DNA of 46,101 bases, from assembly GCA_020425125.1 (NCBI GenBank), contig JAGQRV010000040.1:24366-70466 (forward strand), read 5' to 3'. Under the pieces are notes generated by a model that ran no database searches, was not told where the DNA came from, and was given only the letters and a program-made list of their open reading frames with translations. A program made the position numbers and the translations under genes. The stretch comes from Paracoccaceae bacterium (GTDB taxonomy: Bacteria > Pseudomonadota > Alphaproteobacteria > Rhodobacterales > Rhodobacteraceae). Below, in pieces: positions 14,989 through 32,184 of this stretch; position 1 is the stretch's first letter, and each line of letters starts with the position of its first letter.

Positions 14989-15069
14989 GCGCCAACGCCG
15001 AAGCCCCACTGCGCGCCCGCAACCGGGCCGAATCCGCCTCCCCGGGACATCCCGGCAAGGAGCCTCAGC

Positions 15070-16095
15070 ATGAGCGACCCGCTCTCCACACTTCTAGTCG
15101 GCCGGGACTGGATTCTGGCCGATGGCGCGACCGGAACGAACCTGTTCAACATGGGACTCGCGTCGGGAGAACCCCCGGAATTCTGGAACGACCTTTACCC
15201 TGACAGGATCCGCGATCTCTATCGCTCGGCCGTCGATGCCGGAAGCGATCTGTTCCTGACCAACAGCTTCGGCGCCAATGCGTCGCGCCTGAAACTCCAC
15301 GACGCCGCATCCCGCGCGTTCGAATTGTCGCGCATCGCGGCAGAACTGGGCCGCGAAGTCGCAGATGCGGCGTCTCACCCGGTGCTTGTGGCTGGCTCGA
15401 TCGGACCGACCGGCGAGATCATGTCGCCGATGGGCAGCCTGACGATGGCAAGTGCGGTGGAGATATTCCACGAACAGGCGGAAGGTCTGAAAGCGGGCGG
15501 CGCGGACCTGCTTTGGGTCGAAACCCTTTCGGCCGCTGACGAGTTCCGTGCCGCAGCCGAAGCTGCCAGACGTGCGGCCATGCCCTGGTGCGGGACAATG
15601 AGCTTCGACACGGCGGGCCGCACGATGATGGGACTGGCGCCGGCCGATCTCGTGGGGCTGGTAGAAAGCCTGCCGCACCCGCCGCTGGCCTTCGGCGCCA
15701 ATTGCGGGGTCGGAGCGTCGGACCTCCTGCGGACCGTGCTCGGCTTCGCCGCGCAGGGTCCCGAGCGGCCGGTGATCGCCAAGGGCAATGCTGGCATTCC
15801 GAAATATGTGGACGGCCATGTCCACTACGACGGCACGCCCGAACTGATGGCGCGGTATGCGACTCTGGCGAGGGATTGCGGTGCGACCGTCATCGGCGGT
15901 TGCTGCGGCACGACATCCGAACATCTGCGCGCCATGCGTGCGGCGCTTGAGGCCCACGAGCCGGGACTGCGACCGAGCCTCGAACAGATCGTGGCCGAGG
16001 TCGGTCCGTTTTCCTCGCCCGGCGACGGCAGCGGCACCGATATCCCCGGCGCGACCCGCCGGGCGACGCGGCGGGGGTCCCGACCGCGAGGCTGA
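15070..16095 (+). CDS. bmt: Homocysteine S-methyltransferase (betaine-homocysteine methyltransferase type)
   Basis: 341 residues, a zinc-dependent TIM barrel. ILADGATGTNLFNMG starts the barrel; the zinc cysteines are in FGANCGVG and GGCCGTT. It transfers a methyl group to homocysteine to make methionine. Annotated homologues are called betaine-homocysteine methyltransferases, but the protein has only the homocysteine domain of MetH and lies 1.3 kb from a stand-alone corrinoid protein, so it may be the homocysteine module of a split cobalamin methionine synthase. AAGGAG precedes ATG 15070. The last 25 residues are Arg/Gly rich and probably disordered. Convergent with the radical SAM gene. Confidence 0.85.
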   Translation: MSDPLSTLLVGRDWILADGATGTNLFNMGLASGEPPEFWNDLYPDRIRDLYRSAVDAGSDLFLTNSFGANASRLKLHDAASRAFELSRIAAELGREVADAASHPVLVAGSIGPTGEIMSPMGSLTMASAVEIFHEQAEGLKAGGADLLWVETLSAADEFRAAAEAARRAAMPWCGTMSFDTAGRTMMGLAPADLVGLVESLPHPPLAFGANCGVGASDLLRTVLGFAAQGPERPVIAKGNAGIPKYVDGHVHYDGTPELMARYATLARDCGATVIGGCCGTTSEHLRAMRAALEAHEPGLRPSLEQIVAEVGPFSSPGDGSGTDIPGATRRATRRGSRPRG

Positions 16096-16139: not shown

Positions 16140-17213
16140 TCAGAACAACGAAAGCTGTGCCTGAGGCACCCGGAACAGGTCATTGCGCAGCGGCGGCAGG
16201 TCCCGTGCCAGCCCGAGCCGCGCCATCGCCACCTCGAAGCGCCGGGCGATCAGCGTGGCATGCGCGCCCTCTCCTCGCATGCGCTTGCCGAAGCGCGGAT
16301 CGTAAATCCGCCCGCCCTGAGTCTCGCGCACGCGCCCCAGAACGCGGGACGCGCGGCCAGGATAATGCGTGGCAAGCCAGGCCTCGAACAGCGGTGCAAC
16401 CTCGAGCGGCAGGCGCAGCAACACCCAGCTTGCCGCCTGCGCCCCGGCTTCGCGCGCCGCGGTCAGGACCGGCTCGATTTCGTGATCGGTCAGCGCCGGG
16501 ATCACCGGCGAGAACATGACCCGGACCGGAACCGCCGCCTCGGCCAGCCGCCGGATCACCGCCAGCCGTCTCGCGGGTGCCGGGACCCGCGGCTCCATAC
16601 GCCGCGCAAGGTCGCGGTCCAGCGTGGTCACGGCAATTCCAACCTGGACAAGTCCCACGGCTGCCATTTCGGAAAGAATGTCGATGTCGCGTTCGATCAG
16701 GCTGCCCTTTGTGGCGATCGTGACCGGATGCCGGTGTGCGGCCAGCACTTCGAGCAGACGCCGGGTGATCTTCTGATCGCGCTCCACCGGCTGGTAGGGG
16801 TCGGTATTGGTGCCCAGCGCCAGCGGGGCAGGCTGATATCCCTTTCGACCCAACTCGCGGACCAATGCAGCTGGCGCCTCCGGCTTCGCCGTCAACTTCG
16901 TCTCGAAATCCAGCCCCGGAGACAGACCGAGATAGGCGTGGGTCGGACGGGCATAGCAATAGATGCAGCCATGCTCGCATCCGCGATAGGGATTGACGGA
17001 CCGGTCGAAGAAGATGTCGGGCGACTTGTTGTGGGTGATGATCTTTCGCGGCCGCTCGAAGGCAAGCTCCGTGCGCAGGGGCGGCAGATCCTCGTCCGTC
17101 TCCCAGCCGACGTGTTCGGCCACGCGCGTGTAGGGCTCGAACCGGGCGTCGGGGTTTCCGGTCGCCCCGCGCCCCCGCCGCCGCGCGGCTTCGGGATCAT
17201 TGTTCCGTGCCAT
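16140..17213 (-). CDS. PA0069-family radical SAM protein (spore-photoproduct-lyase-like)
   Basis: 357 residues. The iron-sulfur cluster motif CEHGCIYCYA (CxxxCxxC) follows the family block NPYRGCEHG, and LGTNTDPYQPVE and IATKGSLIERD are further family blocks. The PA0069 group is related to SplB-type radical SAM enzymes; its reaction is not established. Unusually, the spacer of its promoter is a perfect LexA box (17227-17241), so the gene is probably induced by DNA damage, which supports a repair role. Two starts are possible, ATG 17222 and ATG 17213. I choose 17213 because the predicted transcription start falls on or next to it and there is no Shine-Dalgarno; 17222 lies inside the -10 box. 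Confidence 0.87.
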   Translation of the reverse strand: MARNNDPEAARRRGRGATGNPDARFEPYTRVAEHVGWETDEDLPPLRTELAFERPRKIITHNKSPDIFFDRSVNPYRGCEHGCIYCYARPTHAYLGLSPGLDFETKLTAKPEAPAALVRELGRKGYQPAPLALGTNTDPYQPVERDQKITRRLLEVLAAHRHPVTIATKGSLIERDIDILSEMAAVGLVQVGIAVTTLDRDLARRMEPRVPAPARRLAVIRRLAEAAVPVRVMFSPVIPALTDHEIEPVLTAAREAGAQAASWVLLRLPLEVAPLFEAWLATHYPGRASRVLGRVRETQGGRIYDPRFGKRMRGEGAHATLIARRFEVAMARLGLARDLPPLRNDLFRVPQAQLSLF

Positions 17214-17220
17214 GCCCGCC

Positions 17221-17248
17221 ATTATGGAACATTACAAGAACATTTCAA
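17221..17248 (-). promoter_or_regulatory. LexA-controlled promoter of the radical SAM gene
   Basis: Minus strand: -35 TTGAAA (17248-17243), 16-nt spacer, -10 CATAAT (17226-17221). The spacer holds GTTC-TTGTAAT-GTTC (17241-17227), an exact match to the alphaproteobacterial LexA box GTTC-N7-GTTC. Binding there would block RNA polymerase. The expected start (about 17215-17212) coincides with ATG 17213, so the transcript is probably leaderless. Confidence 0.75.
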
Positions 17249-17374: not shown

Positions 17375-18079
17375 ATGAGTGACGAAGACGACATCATCCT
17401 CGCCGATCTCGATGACGACGACCTCGTCCAGCAGATGTTCGACGACCTCTATGACGGCCTCAGGGAAGAGATCGAGGAAGGCGTCCGGATCCTGCTCGAC
17501 CGCGGCTGGGAACCCTACCGCGTCCTGACCGAGGCGCTGGTCGGCGGCATGACCATCGTCGGCCGCGACTTCCGCGACGGAATCCTCTTCGTGCCCGAAG
17601 TGCTTCTGGCAGCCAACGCGATGAAGGGCGGCATGGCCATCCTGAAGCCGCTGCTCGCCGAGACCGGCGCGCCGCGCGTGGGCAAGATGGTGATCGGCAC
17701 CGTCAAGGGCGACATTCACGACATCGGCAAGAACCTCGTATCGATGATGATGGAGGGCGCCGGGTTCGAAGTTGTGGACCTCGGCATCAATAACGCCGTC
17801 GAGAAATATCTGGAAGCTCTGGAGCGCGAGCAGCCTGACATCCTTGGCATGTCCGCGCTTCTGACCACCACGATGCCCTACATGAAGGTGGTGATCGACA
17901 CGCTGTCCGAGAAAGGACTGCGCGACGATTACATTGTGCTGGTCGGAGGTGCGCCGCTGAACGAGGAATTCGGCAAGGCCATCGGTGCCGACGCCTATTG
18001 CCGCGACGCCGCCGTCGCGGTGCAGACAGCGAAGGATTTCATCGCGCGCAAGCACAACCGCATTGCCGCGGCCGGGTAG
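17375..18079 (+). CDS. Corrinoid (cobalamin)-binding methyl-carrier protein, MtbC/MttC type
   Basis: 234 residues. An acidic N-terminus, a helical B12-binding-2 cap domain (about 15-95, with ILFVPEVLLAANAMK), then the Rossmann-like B12 domain with the DxHxxG motif GDIHDIGKN, in which His115 coordinates cobalt, plus GMSALLTTTMPYM and VLVGGAPL. Such proteins carry a methyl group between a donor-specific methyltransferase and an acceptor enzyme. The homocysteine methyltransferase, DUF1638 and an MttB-like protein in the neighbourhood are plausible partners. GGAGAG precedes the ATG. Confidence 0.93.
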   Translation: MSDEDDIILADLDDDDLVQQMFDDLYDGLREEIEEGVRILLDRGWEPYRVLTEALVGGMTIVGRDFRDGILFVPEVLLAANAMKGGMAILKPLLAETGAPRVGKMVIGTVKGDIHDIGKNLVSMMMEGAGFEVVDLGINNAVEKYLEALEREQPDILGMSALLTTTMPYMKVVIDTLSEKGLRDDYIVLVGGAPLNEEFGKAIGADAYCRDAAVAVQTAKDFIARKHNRIAAAG

Positions 18080-21774: not shown

Positions 21775-23270
21775 TCGTCAAGGGCCTCGCACACGGACGG
21801 ATCGAGCGTCGGGGCCTGATACTCTGCCAGCAGCTTTCGCGCCCGCGCATTTGCCAGTGTCCTCGTATCGGGGGCTCCGGCTTCCTCCCAGGTTTCGAAC
21901 GGGCGGTAGTCGAGCACGTCGCTCCGCCAGAAGGCCGTCTTGAAGTTCGCCTGAGTGTGCGCGCATCCAAGATAGTGCCCGCCCGGCCCGACCTCGCGGA
22001 TCGCGTCCATCGCCAGGTCGTCCGTGCTGGCCCCCGGCAGGCCGGCAAGGCGGTGCAGCGCACCGAGCTGATCGGCATCGATCACGAATTTCTCGGGCGA
22101 AGCGACCAGCCCGCCTTCAAGCCAGCCACAGGCATGCAGCATGAAGTTCACGCCTGCCAGCAGAGCCGTGTTCAGCGAATTCGCGCTTTCCATGCCGGCT
22201 TGCGCGTCTGGCAGCTTTGAGCCCGTGAATGCGCCACCCGAACGGAATGGAACGCCAAGCCGCCGCGCCAGCTGTCCCGCCCCATAGATGATCTGCGAAG
22301 CTTCGGGCGTTCCGAAGGTGGGCGCGCCGGAGTTCATGTCGATCGAGGTCACGAAGGCGCCGAAGATCATCGGCGCGCCGGGCCGGACAAGTTGCGAATA
22401 GGCCAGTCCCGCCAGGACCTCTGCCATGACCTGGACCAGCGTGCCGGCCACCGAAACCGGCGACATCGCCCCGCCGACGATGAAGGGCGACAGGATGCAC
22501 GCCTGGTTCGCGGCCGCATAGACCTCGAGCGCCCCCATCATGGTGCTGTCGAAGCTCAATGGCGAATTGACGTTGATCAGCGAGGTCAGCACCGTTTCGG
22601 GGCCGACACGGCCTGGGCCGAACAGGATTTCGCACATTTCCACGCTGTGCCGCGCGCGTTCGGGCGCCGTCACCGAGCCCATAAACGGCTTGTCCGACAG
22701 CGTCATGTGCGCGCGCAGCATGTCGAGATGGCGCTTGTTTGCGGGAATGTCCGTCGGCTCGCAGACCGTGCCGCCGGAATGGTGCAACCAGGGCGTCATC
22801 TGGCCCAGCTTCACGAAGTCGTGAAAGTCCGCGAGCGTCGCGTATCGCCGCCGTCCGTCAAGGTCGAGCACGAAGGGCGGTCCGTAAACCGGCGCAAGGA
22901 CCAGCGTGTTTCCACCGATGTCGACGGATTTCGCCGGATTGCGCGCCGTCTGCGTGAACTGTGCCGGAACGGTCGCACAAAGCCCCCGGGCAAGACCGCG
23001 CGGGAGGTGAACCCGCTCGCCTTCGATGTCTGCGCCGGCATCGCGCCAACGGCTGAGCGCGGCCGGATTTTCCAGGAAGTTGACGCCAATCTCGGAAAGG
23101 ACATCTTCGGCCGCGTCCTCGATCAGCTCCATCGCTTCGCTGCTGAAGAGATCGAAGGTCGGGATCTTGCGCTCGATGAAGCGGGCCGTCTCAACATGAA
23201 GCGCACTGCGCTCTGCCCGCCGCGCCGCACCGCCTCCGCGCCCCCGGCGCCTGTCCGCCACTTCCGTCAT
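21729..23270 (-). CDS. Trimethylamine methyltransferase (MttB) family protein without pyrrolysine
   Basis: 513 residues, COG5598 family. IPTFDLFSSEAMELIEDAAEDVLSEIG, GPPFVLDLDGRRRYATLADFHDF, HSGGTVCEP and SPLSFDSTMMGALEVYA are typical blocks. The frame has no internal amber codon, so it is a non-pyrrolysine member like MtgB, which demethylates glycine betaine onto a corrinoid protein. Whether it acts on betaine or another methylamine is open. The corrinoid protein at 17375 is a candidate partner. ATG 23270 follows AGGAG; an upstream in-frame TTG (23291) lacks a site. Confidence 0.85.
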   Translation of the reverse strand: MTEVADRRRGRGGGAARRAERSALHVETARFIERKIPTFDLFSSEAMELIEDAAEDVLSEIGVNFLENPAALSRWRDAGADIEGERVHLPRGLARGLCATVPAQFTQTARNPAKSVDIGGNTLVLAPVYGPPFVLDLDGRRRYATLADFHDFVKLGQMTPWLHHSGGTVCEPTDIPANKRHLDMLRAHMTLSDKPFMGSVTAPERARHSVEMCEILFGPGRVGPETVLTSLINVNSPLSFDSTMMGALEVYAAANQACILSPFIVGGAMSPVSVAGTLVQVMAEVLAGLAYSQLVRPGAPMIFGAFVTSIDMNSGAPTFGTPEASQIIYGAGQLARRLGVPFRSGGAFTGSKLPDAQAGMESANSLNTALLAGVNFMLHACGWLEGGLVASPEKFVIDADQLGALHRLAGLPGASTDDLAMDAIREVGPGGHYLGCAHTQANFKTAFWRSDVLDYRPFETWEEAGAPDTRTLANARARKLLAEYQAPTLDPSVCEALDDYIARRKGEVADAFA

Positions 23271-31725: not shown

Positions 31726-32184
31726 TCAGTCGGATTTGCGTGTCAGCAAGGCAAGGATCGCCTCAACCACTCCTCCCAGCAGCACGCGCCCCGGATCCCG
31801 GGCGAAGATCTGGATCTGACTGCGCAGCAGATCGGCCTCCTTCACGACCCCGTTCAGCTCGCGTTCGATATCCGCGATCGCCATATCCCGCACCTCGACC
31901 GCTGCCTTGGTCTCGCGCTCGACACTCTGTCGTCCGGCAGCCGCGACCAGAATCGCGGCAAGCAGAAAGTCCACCAGCGCAACCACCAAGGCCGCGCCGC
32001 CTCCGCCGAGCGCAGTGCGCAGCGCAAAGAACCCGGCGACGTTCAGCATCACGACGCCGACCGCGGCGGCACCGCCGGCCAGCGCCAGCAATCCGGTCTG
32101 GACGCGCAGCACCGCGAACTGGCGCTGCGCGATCAGACGTTCGCTTTGCAGGACGATCCTGACATCTCGTAGGAGTCGCGCCAT
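31726..32184 (-). CDS. Phage-holin-family membrane protein (YqjE/Phage_holin_3_6 type)
   Basis: 152 residues with two helices, at about 27-55 and 62-85, flanked by a basic N-terminus and a helical cytosolic tail ending LLTRKSD. The layout matches the holin-like YqjE group, which is chromosomal and not phage in most bacteria. It starts 6 nt after the upstream YqjD-like gene; the pair probably forms an operon. The E. coli yqjDE genes are stress-related; function here is inferred only from the shape of the pair. Confidence 0.68.
   Translation of the reverse strand: MARLLRDVRIVLQSERLIAQRQFAVLRVQTGLLALAGGAAAVGVVMLNVAGFFALRTALGGGGAALVVALVDFLLAAILVAAAGRQSVERETKAAVEVRDMAIADIERELNGVVKEADLLRSQIQIFARDPGRVLLGGVVEAILALLTRKSD

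Follow-up and report, generated by a model that had tools for sequence, protein, structure and literature searches.

Radical SAM genes have been placed in SOS regulons before. LexA control of a gene called splB was predicted in 2012 across Alpha- and Betaproteobacteria, using class-specific LexA motifs (PMC3323433); Paracoccus denitrificans and Rhodobacter sphaeroides were among the alphaproteobacterial species, and the accessible part of that paper describes splB as photoreactivation under SOS control. Because that control was predicted so early, SOS control of a radical SAM gene is not new in kind. As far as the accessible text of two further papers goes, SplB/COG1533 radical SAM proteins occur in the SOS regulons of Bacteroidetes (PMC8565304), and a radical SAM protein belongs to the SOS cores of Gram-positives and Balneolaeota (PMC7739468). 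The splB gene of PMC3323433 is likely to be the PA0069 family, which is our subject here; the text available from that paper carries neither locus tags nor the species of each site. In the portions of print that we draw on, PA0069 is an entry in a microarray table and, elsewhere, a chromosomal marker, and a gene annotated SplB was raised in Pseudomonas fluorescens under polyphenol (PMC5435343). The main text of PMC6473078, on Dinoroseobacter shibae, has no occurrence of radical SAM, splB or photoproduct; no radical SAM or photoproduct genes were found in the Caulobacter papers searched, nor anything in the open-licence literature on Rv2578c together with LexA. In the accessible open-licence literature we found the radical SAM gene nowhere described as leaderless or start-locked, and that is the form that the present locus appears to have.

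The gene lies in a window, by which we mean the whole stretch of 46,101 nucleotides that was analysed. Its protein scores 499.6 bits against the PA0069-family model NF033668 (cut-off 360, residues 13–357); the nearest other NCBIfam model, NF038135 (the Rv2578c family), gives 214 bits against a cut-off of 430. On one side is a betaine-homocysteine methyltransferase gene (15070–16095, plus strand, NF005718 over cut-off) and on the other a corrinoid-protein gene (17375–18079, plus strand) with B12-binding domains, so to judge by its neighbours the gene lives among methyl transfer functions, apparently unrelated to DNA repair. No Rfam family matched between positions 15000 and 19000 of the window.

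What first drew attention to the locus was its promoter. The original prediction read TTGAAA, GTTC-N7-GTTC, CATAAT and ATG 17213 in succession, with no Shine–Dalgarno sequence, and that reading is accurate: every element could be located (Table 1). Repressor site, promoter and start codon are packed into some 40 bases. On the minus strand one base separates TTGAAA from the LexA box and seven separate CATAAT from ATG 17213, and the spacer between -35 and -10 is 16 nt. Reading the sequence, we see no Shine–Dalgarno tetramer (GGAG, GAGG or AGGA) before ATG 17213, and no Shine–Dalgarno before ATG 17222 either, which is where the mechanical list of open reading frames starts the gene. We favour 17213 because the box-to-start spacing of relatives clusters at 27; measured from the box start, the distance is 28 for ATG 17213 and 19 for ATG 17222. 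An in-frame TAA (17234–17232, minus strand) inside the box means that the gene starts at 17222, at 17213 or further in, not further up.

Table 1. Features of the radical SAM gene and its predicted promoter (window positions)
Feature	Positions	Strand	Basis
Predicted -35 hexamer, TTGAAA	17243..17248	minus	read from sequence
LexA box GTTCTTGTAATGTTC (GTTC-TTGTAAT-GTTC), filling the promoter spacer	17227..17241	minus	exact box in 98/106 family homologues
Predicted -10 hexamer, CATAAT, abutting the LexA box	17221..17226	minus	read from sequence
Alternative in-frame ATG within the -10, judged not to be the start	17220..17222	minus	box-start spacing of 19 not conserved
Start codon ATG at the predicted transcription start, predicted leaderless	17211..17213	minus	spacing in relatives
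PA0069-family radical SAM gene, 357 aa from ATG 17213, stop included	16140..17213	minus	NF033668; Pfam Radical_SAM
Radical SAM cluster motif CEHGCIYC (C79, C83, C86 of 357 aa)	16956..16979	minus	CxxxCxxC

How much should one make of a single box? Taken alone, GTTCN7GTTC proves little, because the counts show that it is not rare: three in the window where 1.2 are expected (three or more turned up in 12 of 100 shuffles), and 156 in the whole 4.02-Mb genome, where the reversed pattern has 38. The other two in the window (22956–22970 and 31852–31866) have GC-rich spacers and lie inside open reading frames of the mechanical list; we took them to be chance. Could the third be chance as well, a motif and some promoter-like hexamers before an ordinary gene? 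The window count leaves some room for that idea. The survey of relatives, which the original prediction had proposed as one of its checks, refutes it. In 149 genomes of the same taxonomic family the gene had a match in 109, with 106 (the window's included) over the cut-off, and no match at all in the remaining 40. Loci were oriented by tblastn in the family and named sets and by listed strand in the class and phylum sets, and the upstream regions of all 106 homologues were read. An exact GTTCN7GTTC lies near the start in 98 of them (homologous promoters being non-independent observations), compared with 4 of the 423 control windows placed in gene bodies and none of the 104 placed further upstream, all on the same strand. 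Conservation on that scale takes the motif out of the realm of chance, to which we now give practically no credence. Five of the eight homologues that miss the exact box have, by eye, one with a single mismatch (L053, L141, L161, L163, L191). One relative, L056, carries two overlapping tandem boxes, with GTTC three times in 11-nt steps.

The window's own genome tells us what such a box goes with. A stricter form, GTTCN5WTGTTC, occurs 20 times there against 4 for the reversed pattern. We read the neighbourhoods of eleven boxes, and five stand before genes for LexA, RecA, UvrA, a PcrA/UvrD-type helicase and an IMS-domain polymerase (uvrA and the helicase gene are partial in their loci and identified by best match). 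With the strict box before these genes, the motif marks the SOS regulon in this organism. Both lexA (C93) and recA (C83, running off its contig) are encoded, each with a box before it. For another five of the eleven boxes, the neighbours have no family match (L004, L230) or there is no nameable gene (L018, L225, L226). An MT-A70 methyltransferase gene (L229:821–1450, minus strand) starts 50 nt from a strict LexA box at 1501 and is possibly a further SOS member in this genome. As for position, among 40 genomes in which both were placed, lexA and the PA0069 gene share a contig in 17 and are no more than 12 kb apart in 7; in the window's genome the two are on different contigs. One might still argue that another regulator binds the box and that its likeness to a LexA site is coincidental, GTTCN7GTTC being so common in the genome. 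The strict motif before lexA, recA and uvrA in that same genome speaks against this, as does the finding, described below, of the other type of LexA box at the same gene in relatives outside the class. We hold it to be very improbable.

The position of the start codon is as striking as the box. Among the 98 family homologues with an exact box, 92 have a start codon 25–29 nt from the box start, and in 69 the distance is exactly 27. A box of 15, a -10 hexamer of 6 and a discriminator of 6 add up to 27, so the A of the ATG sits where transcription usually starts. In an alignment of 69 relatives, a TTG at -35 (97% T, 64% T, 77% G) lies 8–6 nt before the box, which is a base more than in the window, and the hexamer after the box follows (T/C)A...T (81% T plus 16% C, then 97% A, and 75% T at the end). 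SD-like tetramers are scarce, with 5 in the 15 nt before the ATG of these 69 promoters and 3 in the -16 to -4 stretch of 95 family promoters. TANNNT occurs 5–8 nt before the start in 53 of the 95, and at exactly 6 in 41. The window promoter fails this TANNNT test because its hexamer begins with C; both its CATAAT and its 16-nt spacer depart a little from what is commonest among relatives. There is also a second, smaller TANNNT peak 13–14 nt before the start (16 and 9 cases in the family set), which falls inside the box and, if used, would give a leader of some 7 nt.

Other Alphaproteobacteria have the same gene with a different arrangement. The class survey took in 90 loci, one of them from the same family, out of 143 genomes over the cut-off; 73 of the 90 have the exact box and 17 do not. 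In 48 of 89 class loci the ATG is 38–40 nt from the box start, a second geometry. Here the box spacer begins with TTG in 42 of the 48, against 6 of 87 loci with the window's geometry, so the box itself holds a -35-like hexamer and the -10 follows at its conserved place 17 nt later. TANNNT lies 5–8 nt before the start in 38 of 71 class-set promoters and at exactly 6 in 29, so that the two geometries do not differ in how far the start lies from the -10. With that distance fixed and two box positions, it is the operator that is displaced, by about 12 bp, and not the start codon. The in-box TANNNT, on the other hand, shifts away with the box (5 and 5 cases, now at 25–26 nt), and the hexamer 6 nt before the start is the only one to keep its place across the two geometries. 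SD-like tetramers precede 9 of the 71 class-set starts.

In a protein tree of 216 tips, the second geometry is scattered over the deep branches of the Alphaproteobacteria, and the first is nearly confined to the family of the window. Five tips outside it were labelled as first geometry (L117, L307, L309, L320, L321), wrongly so for L307, L320 and L321; in these three, one ATG lies upstream across the -10 and another at 39–40. The second geometry also occurs inside the family, in L148 among the earliest tips and in L190, L097, L076 and L113, side by side further in. The history of the operator's position was probably one main shift and one return; the 36 parsimony changes on the tree mix box loss, longer spacing and mislabels and give no count of events. 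In a set of 80 named loci the exact box is missing in 14, at least 7 of these being Gammaproteobacteria to judge from their titles.

Is a locked start simply how SOS genes look in these bacteria? It is not. All 30 lexA loci have the box upstream, 35–258 nt from the start, as do 25 of 30 recA loci, where the distance is 63–89 nt. An SD-like tetramer stands before 22 of 30 lexA starts and 20 of 27 recA starts (recA starts could be assigned in 27 of the 30 loci), and none of the 30 or of the 27 has TANNNT at 5–8 nt. Since the spacing varies and a Shine–Dalgarno sequence is mostly present, locked spacing without one is not general to SOS genes here. We also observed that the direct-repeat box at lexA and recA (L236–L295) runs the other way round from the one at the radical SAM gene; a forward box is additionally present in one lexA locus and two recA loci. 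Rhizobiaceae-type loci of the radical SAM gene are a control of another sort. The box is present in 23 of 26 named loci, and 50–87 nt separate the box start from the first start codon, which has an SD-like tetramer before it in 20 of the 23. The longer spacing mostly goes with a Shine–Dalgarno sequence, and no indirect argument is stronger for reading the lack of one elsewhere as leaderless translation. Three Rhizobium rhizogenes/Agrobacterium loci (L072, L079, L081) have the gene without an exact box upstream, the best match having two mismatches.

These comparisons bear on a rival that accepts LexA and rejects the leaderless message. An upstream promoter, the in-box TANNNT used as a -10 or a start at ATG 17222 would each give the mRNA a short leader, and there is something to be said for all this: ATG 17222 is in frame, some relatives do have TANNNT 13–14 nt before the start and the Rhizobiaceae-type relatives combine longer spacing with a Shine–Dalgarno sequence. 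Yet neither ATG in the window has a Shine–Dalgarno sequence before it, and the in-frame TAA bars a start further up. The start is fixed at a discriminator of 6 in two geometries while the in-box hexamer moves (13–14 versus 25–26), and the Shine–Dalgarno sequence appears where the spacing is longer. We think a leader unlikely. The leaderless mRNA of the original prediction has thus gained support by comparison, from a start that keeps its place in two geometries and from a Shine–Dalgarno sequence that is rare there and mostly present at longer spacing. The layout is not universal: it is missing from the Rhizobiaceae-type loci and apparently from the non-alphaproteobacterial ones.

What of the gene further afield? 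We collected 31 homologues from non-alphaproteobacterial Pseudomonadota, of 32 over the cut-off. The box GTTCN7GTTC is found in 0 of 31. In its stead, 22 of the 31 have an exact CTGTN8ACAG within 97 nt upstream of the model start, where shuffles lead one to expect 0.16, and this is the LexA box of gamma- and betaproteobacteria. All five named Pseudomonas loci have it; nine of the 31 loci do not. PA0069 itself was reportedly placed by Cirz et al. in 2006 in the experimentally defined LexA regulon of P. aeruginosa. LexA control, it appears from these promoters, stayed with the gene while the operator sequence changed. GGAG or GAGG in the short stretch before the start of some of these loci (L414, L418 and L424, for example) suggests that the leaderless form may be confined to Alphaproteobacteria. 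The claim that this radical SAM gene belongs to the SOS regulon therefore finds support in comparison, with one box at nearly all family homologues and the other LexA box outside the class. Comparison likewise supports the predicted operator, promoter geometry and start codon and, across two operator types, LexA control. Putting all the loci together, we regard LexA control and, in many Alphaproteobacteria, leaderless translation as well supported by comparison.

The function of the protein is another matter. The original prediction saw in the family a resemblance to spore photoproduct lyase (SPL) and took SOS control to point to a part in DNA repair. Like SPL of Bacillus, the window protein belongs to the radical SAM superfamily, and that much stands: C79, C83 and C86 are invariant in 45 of 45 aligned proteins. 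The rest of the resemblance is thin. SPL needs a further cysteine as hydrogen donor. The window protein has three cysteines only, all in the cluster motif, and among the 45 aligned proteins no cysteine is conserved outside the cluster, no other column having one in more than 11. Querying PDB sequences with the protein matched no SPL chain up to E 10, and a profile search gave seven matches up to E 1, none named SPL; short local stretches matched the profile weakly in SkfB (E 0.0073) and NifB (E 0.027), which are peptide- and cofactor-maturing radical SAM enzymes. The AlphaFold2 model of the protein has a mean pLDDT of 79.4 and a pTM of 0.80.

One can therefore imagine an SOS-controlled, leaderless gene whose enzyme modifies RNA, a protein or a small molecule rather than repairing DNA. 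The missing hydrogen-donor cysteine, the lack of an SPL match in the PDB and the weak profile matches to SkfB and NifB all lean that way, and we take the possibility seriously without holding it to be probable. Against it is the regulation: LexA control with both operator types across Pseudomonadota points to a function tied to DNA damage, its kind left unspecified. A DNA-repair function thus remains a reasonable reading of the regulation, not of the chemistry. Most likely, we infer, damaged nucleic acid is the target of the product, or else the product has a part in damage tolerance.

Our preferred reading, then, is of an SOS gene that LexA represses and that is transcribed from its own start codon onwards, with a product that probably serves damaged nucleic acid or damage tolerance, and we think it very likely to be right. 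In undamaged cells LexA would sit on GTTC-N7-GTTC between -35 and -10 and keep RNA polymerase off. On DNA damage, RecA filaments would bring about the self-cleavage of LexA and so free the promoter. Transcription would start at or beside the A of ATG 17213, and the message would be translated without a Shine–Dalgarno sequence into a radical SAM [4Fe-4S] protein. In this scheme LexA binding, induction, the exact 5′ end and the role of the enzyme are what we infer from the layout and its conservation.

More speculatively, selection may keep this SOS gene leaderless in most Alphaproteobacteria. Operator, core promoter and start codon would then form one module of about 40 bp, in which the operator moved some 12 bp, from overlapping the -35 into the spacer (with an apparent return in one nested group), as the start codon stayed at +1. 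We offer this tentatively, as an idea that could well be wrong. If true, the damage response keeps a message that can be started without a leader, for example when normal initiation is impaired. The locus is of interest for two further reasons. Here two operator sequences, unrelated to each other, link an uncharacterised radical SAM family to LexA control throughout the Pseudomonadota, and control through two operator types is a strong reason to seek its substrate among the products of DNA damage. Here too is a natural experiment on leaderless translation: one gene and one regulator, predicted to be leaderless in two geometries, set against a Rhizobiaceae-type form that has wider spacing and a Shine–Dalgarno sequence.

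Set beside the systems already described, the locus has several partial likenesses. The splB of PMC3323433 is, like the window gene, an SPL homologue under predicted LexA control; there it is treated as a photolyase, and the accessible text mentions neither a leaderless mRNA nor promoter geometry. In the systems of PMC8565304 and PMC7739468 a radical SAM gene is a recurrent SOS member, as here, although their LexA motifs differ from the window's and the subfamily is not stated in the text available. Dinoroseobacter shibae offers an alphaproteobacterial LexA motif, with lexA and recA among the predicted targets in the accessible text (PMC6473078). Deinococcus deserti, a bacterium studied for its DNA-damage response, has mRNAs that begin at the start codon; the leaderless examples tkt and Deide_09130 are not radiation-induced, however, and the regulator is DdrO/IrrE, not LexA, according to the accessible part of PMC5552922. 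Against this background, what would be new at the present locus is its conserved leaderless architecture, as predicted from these promoters, and the two geometries in which it comes.
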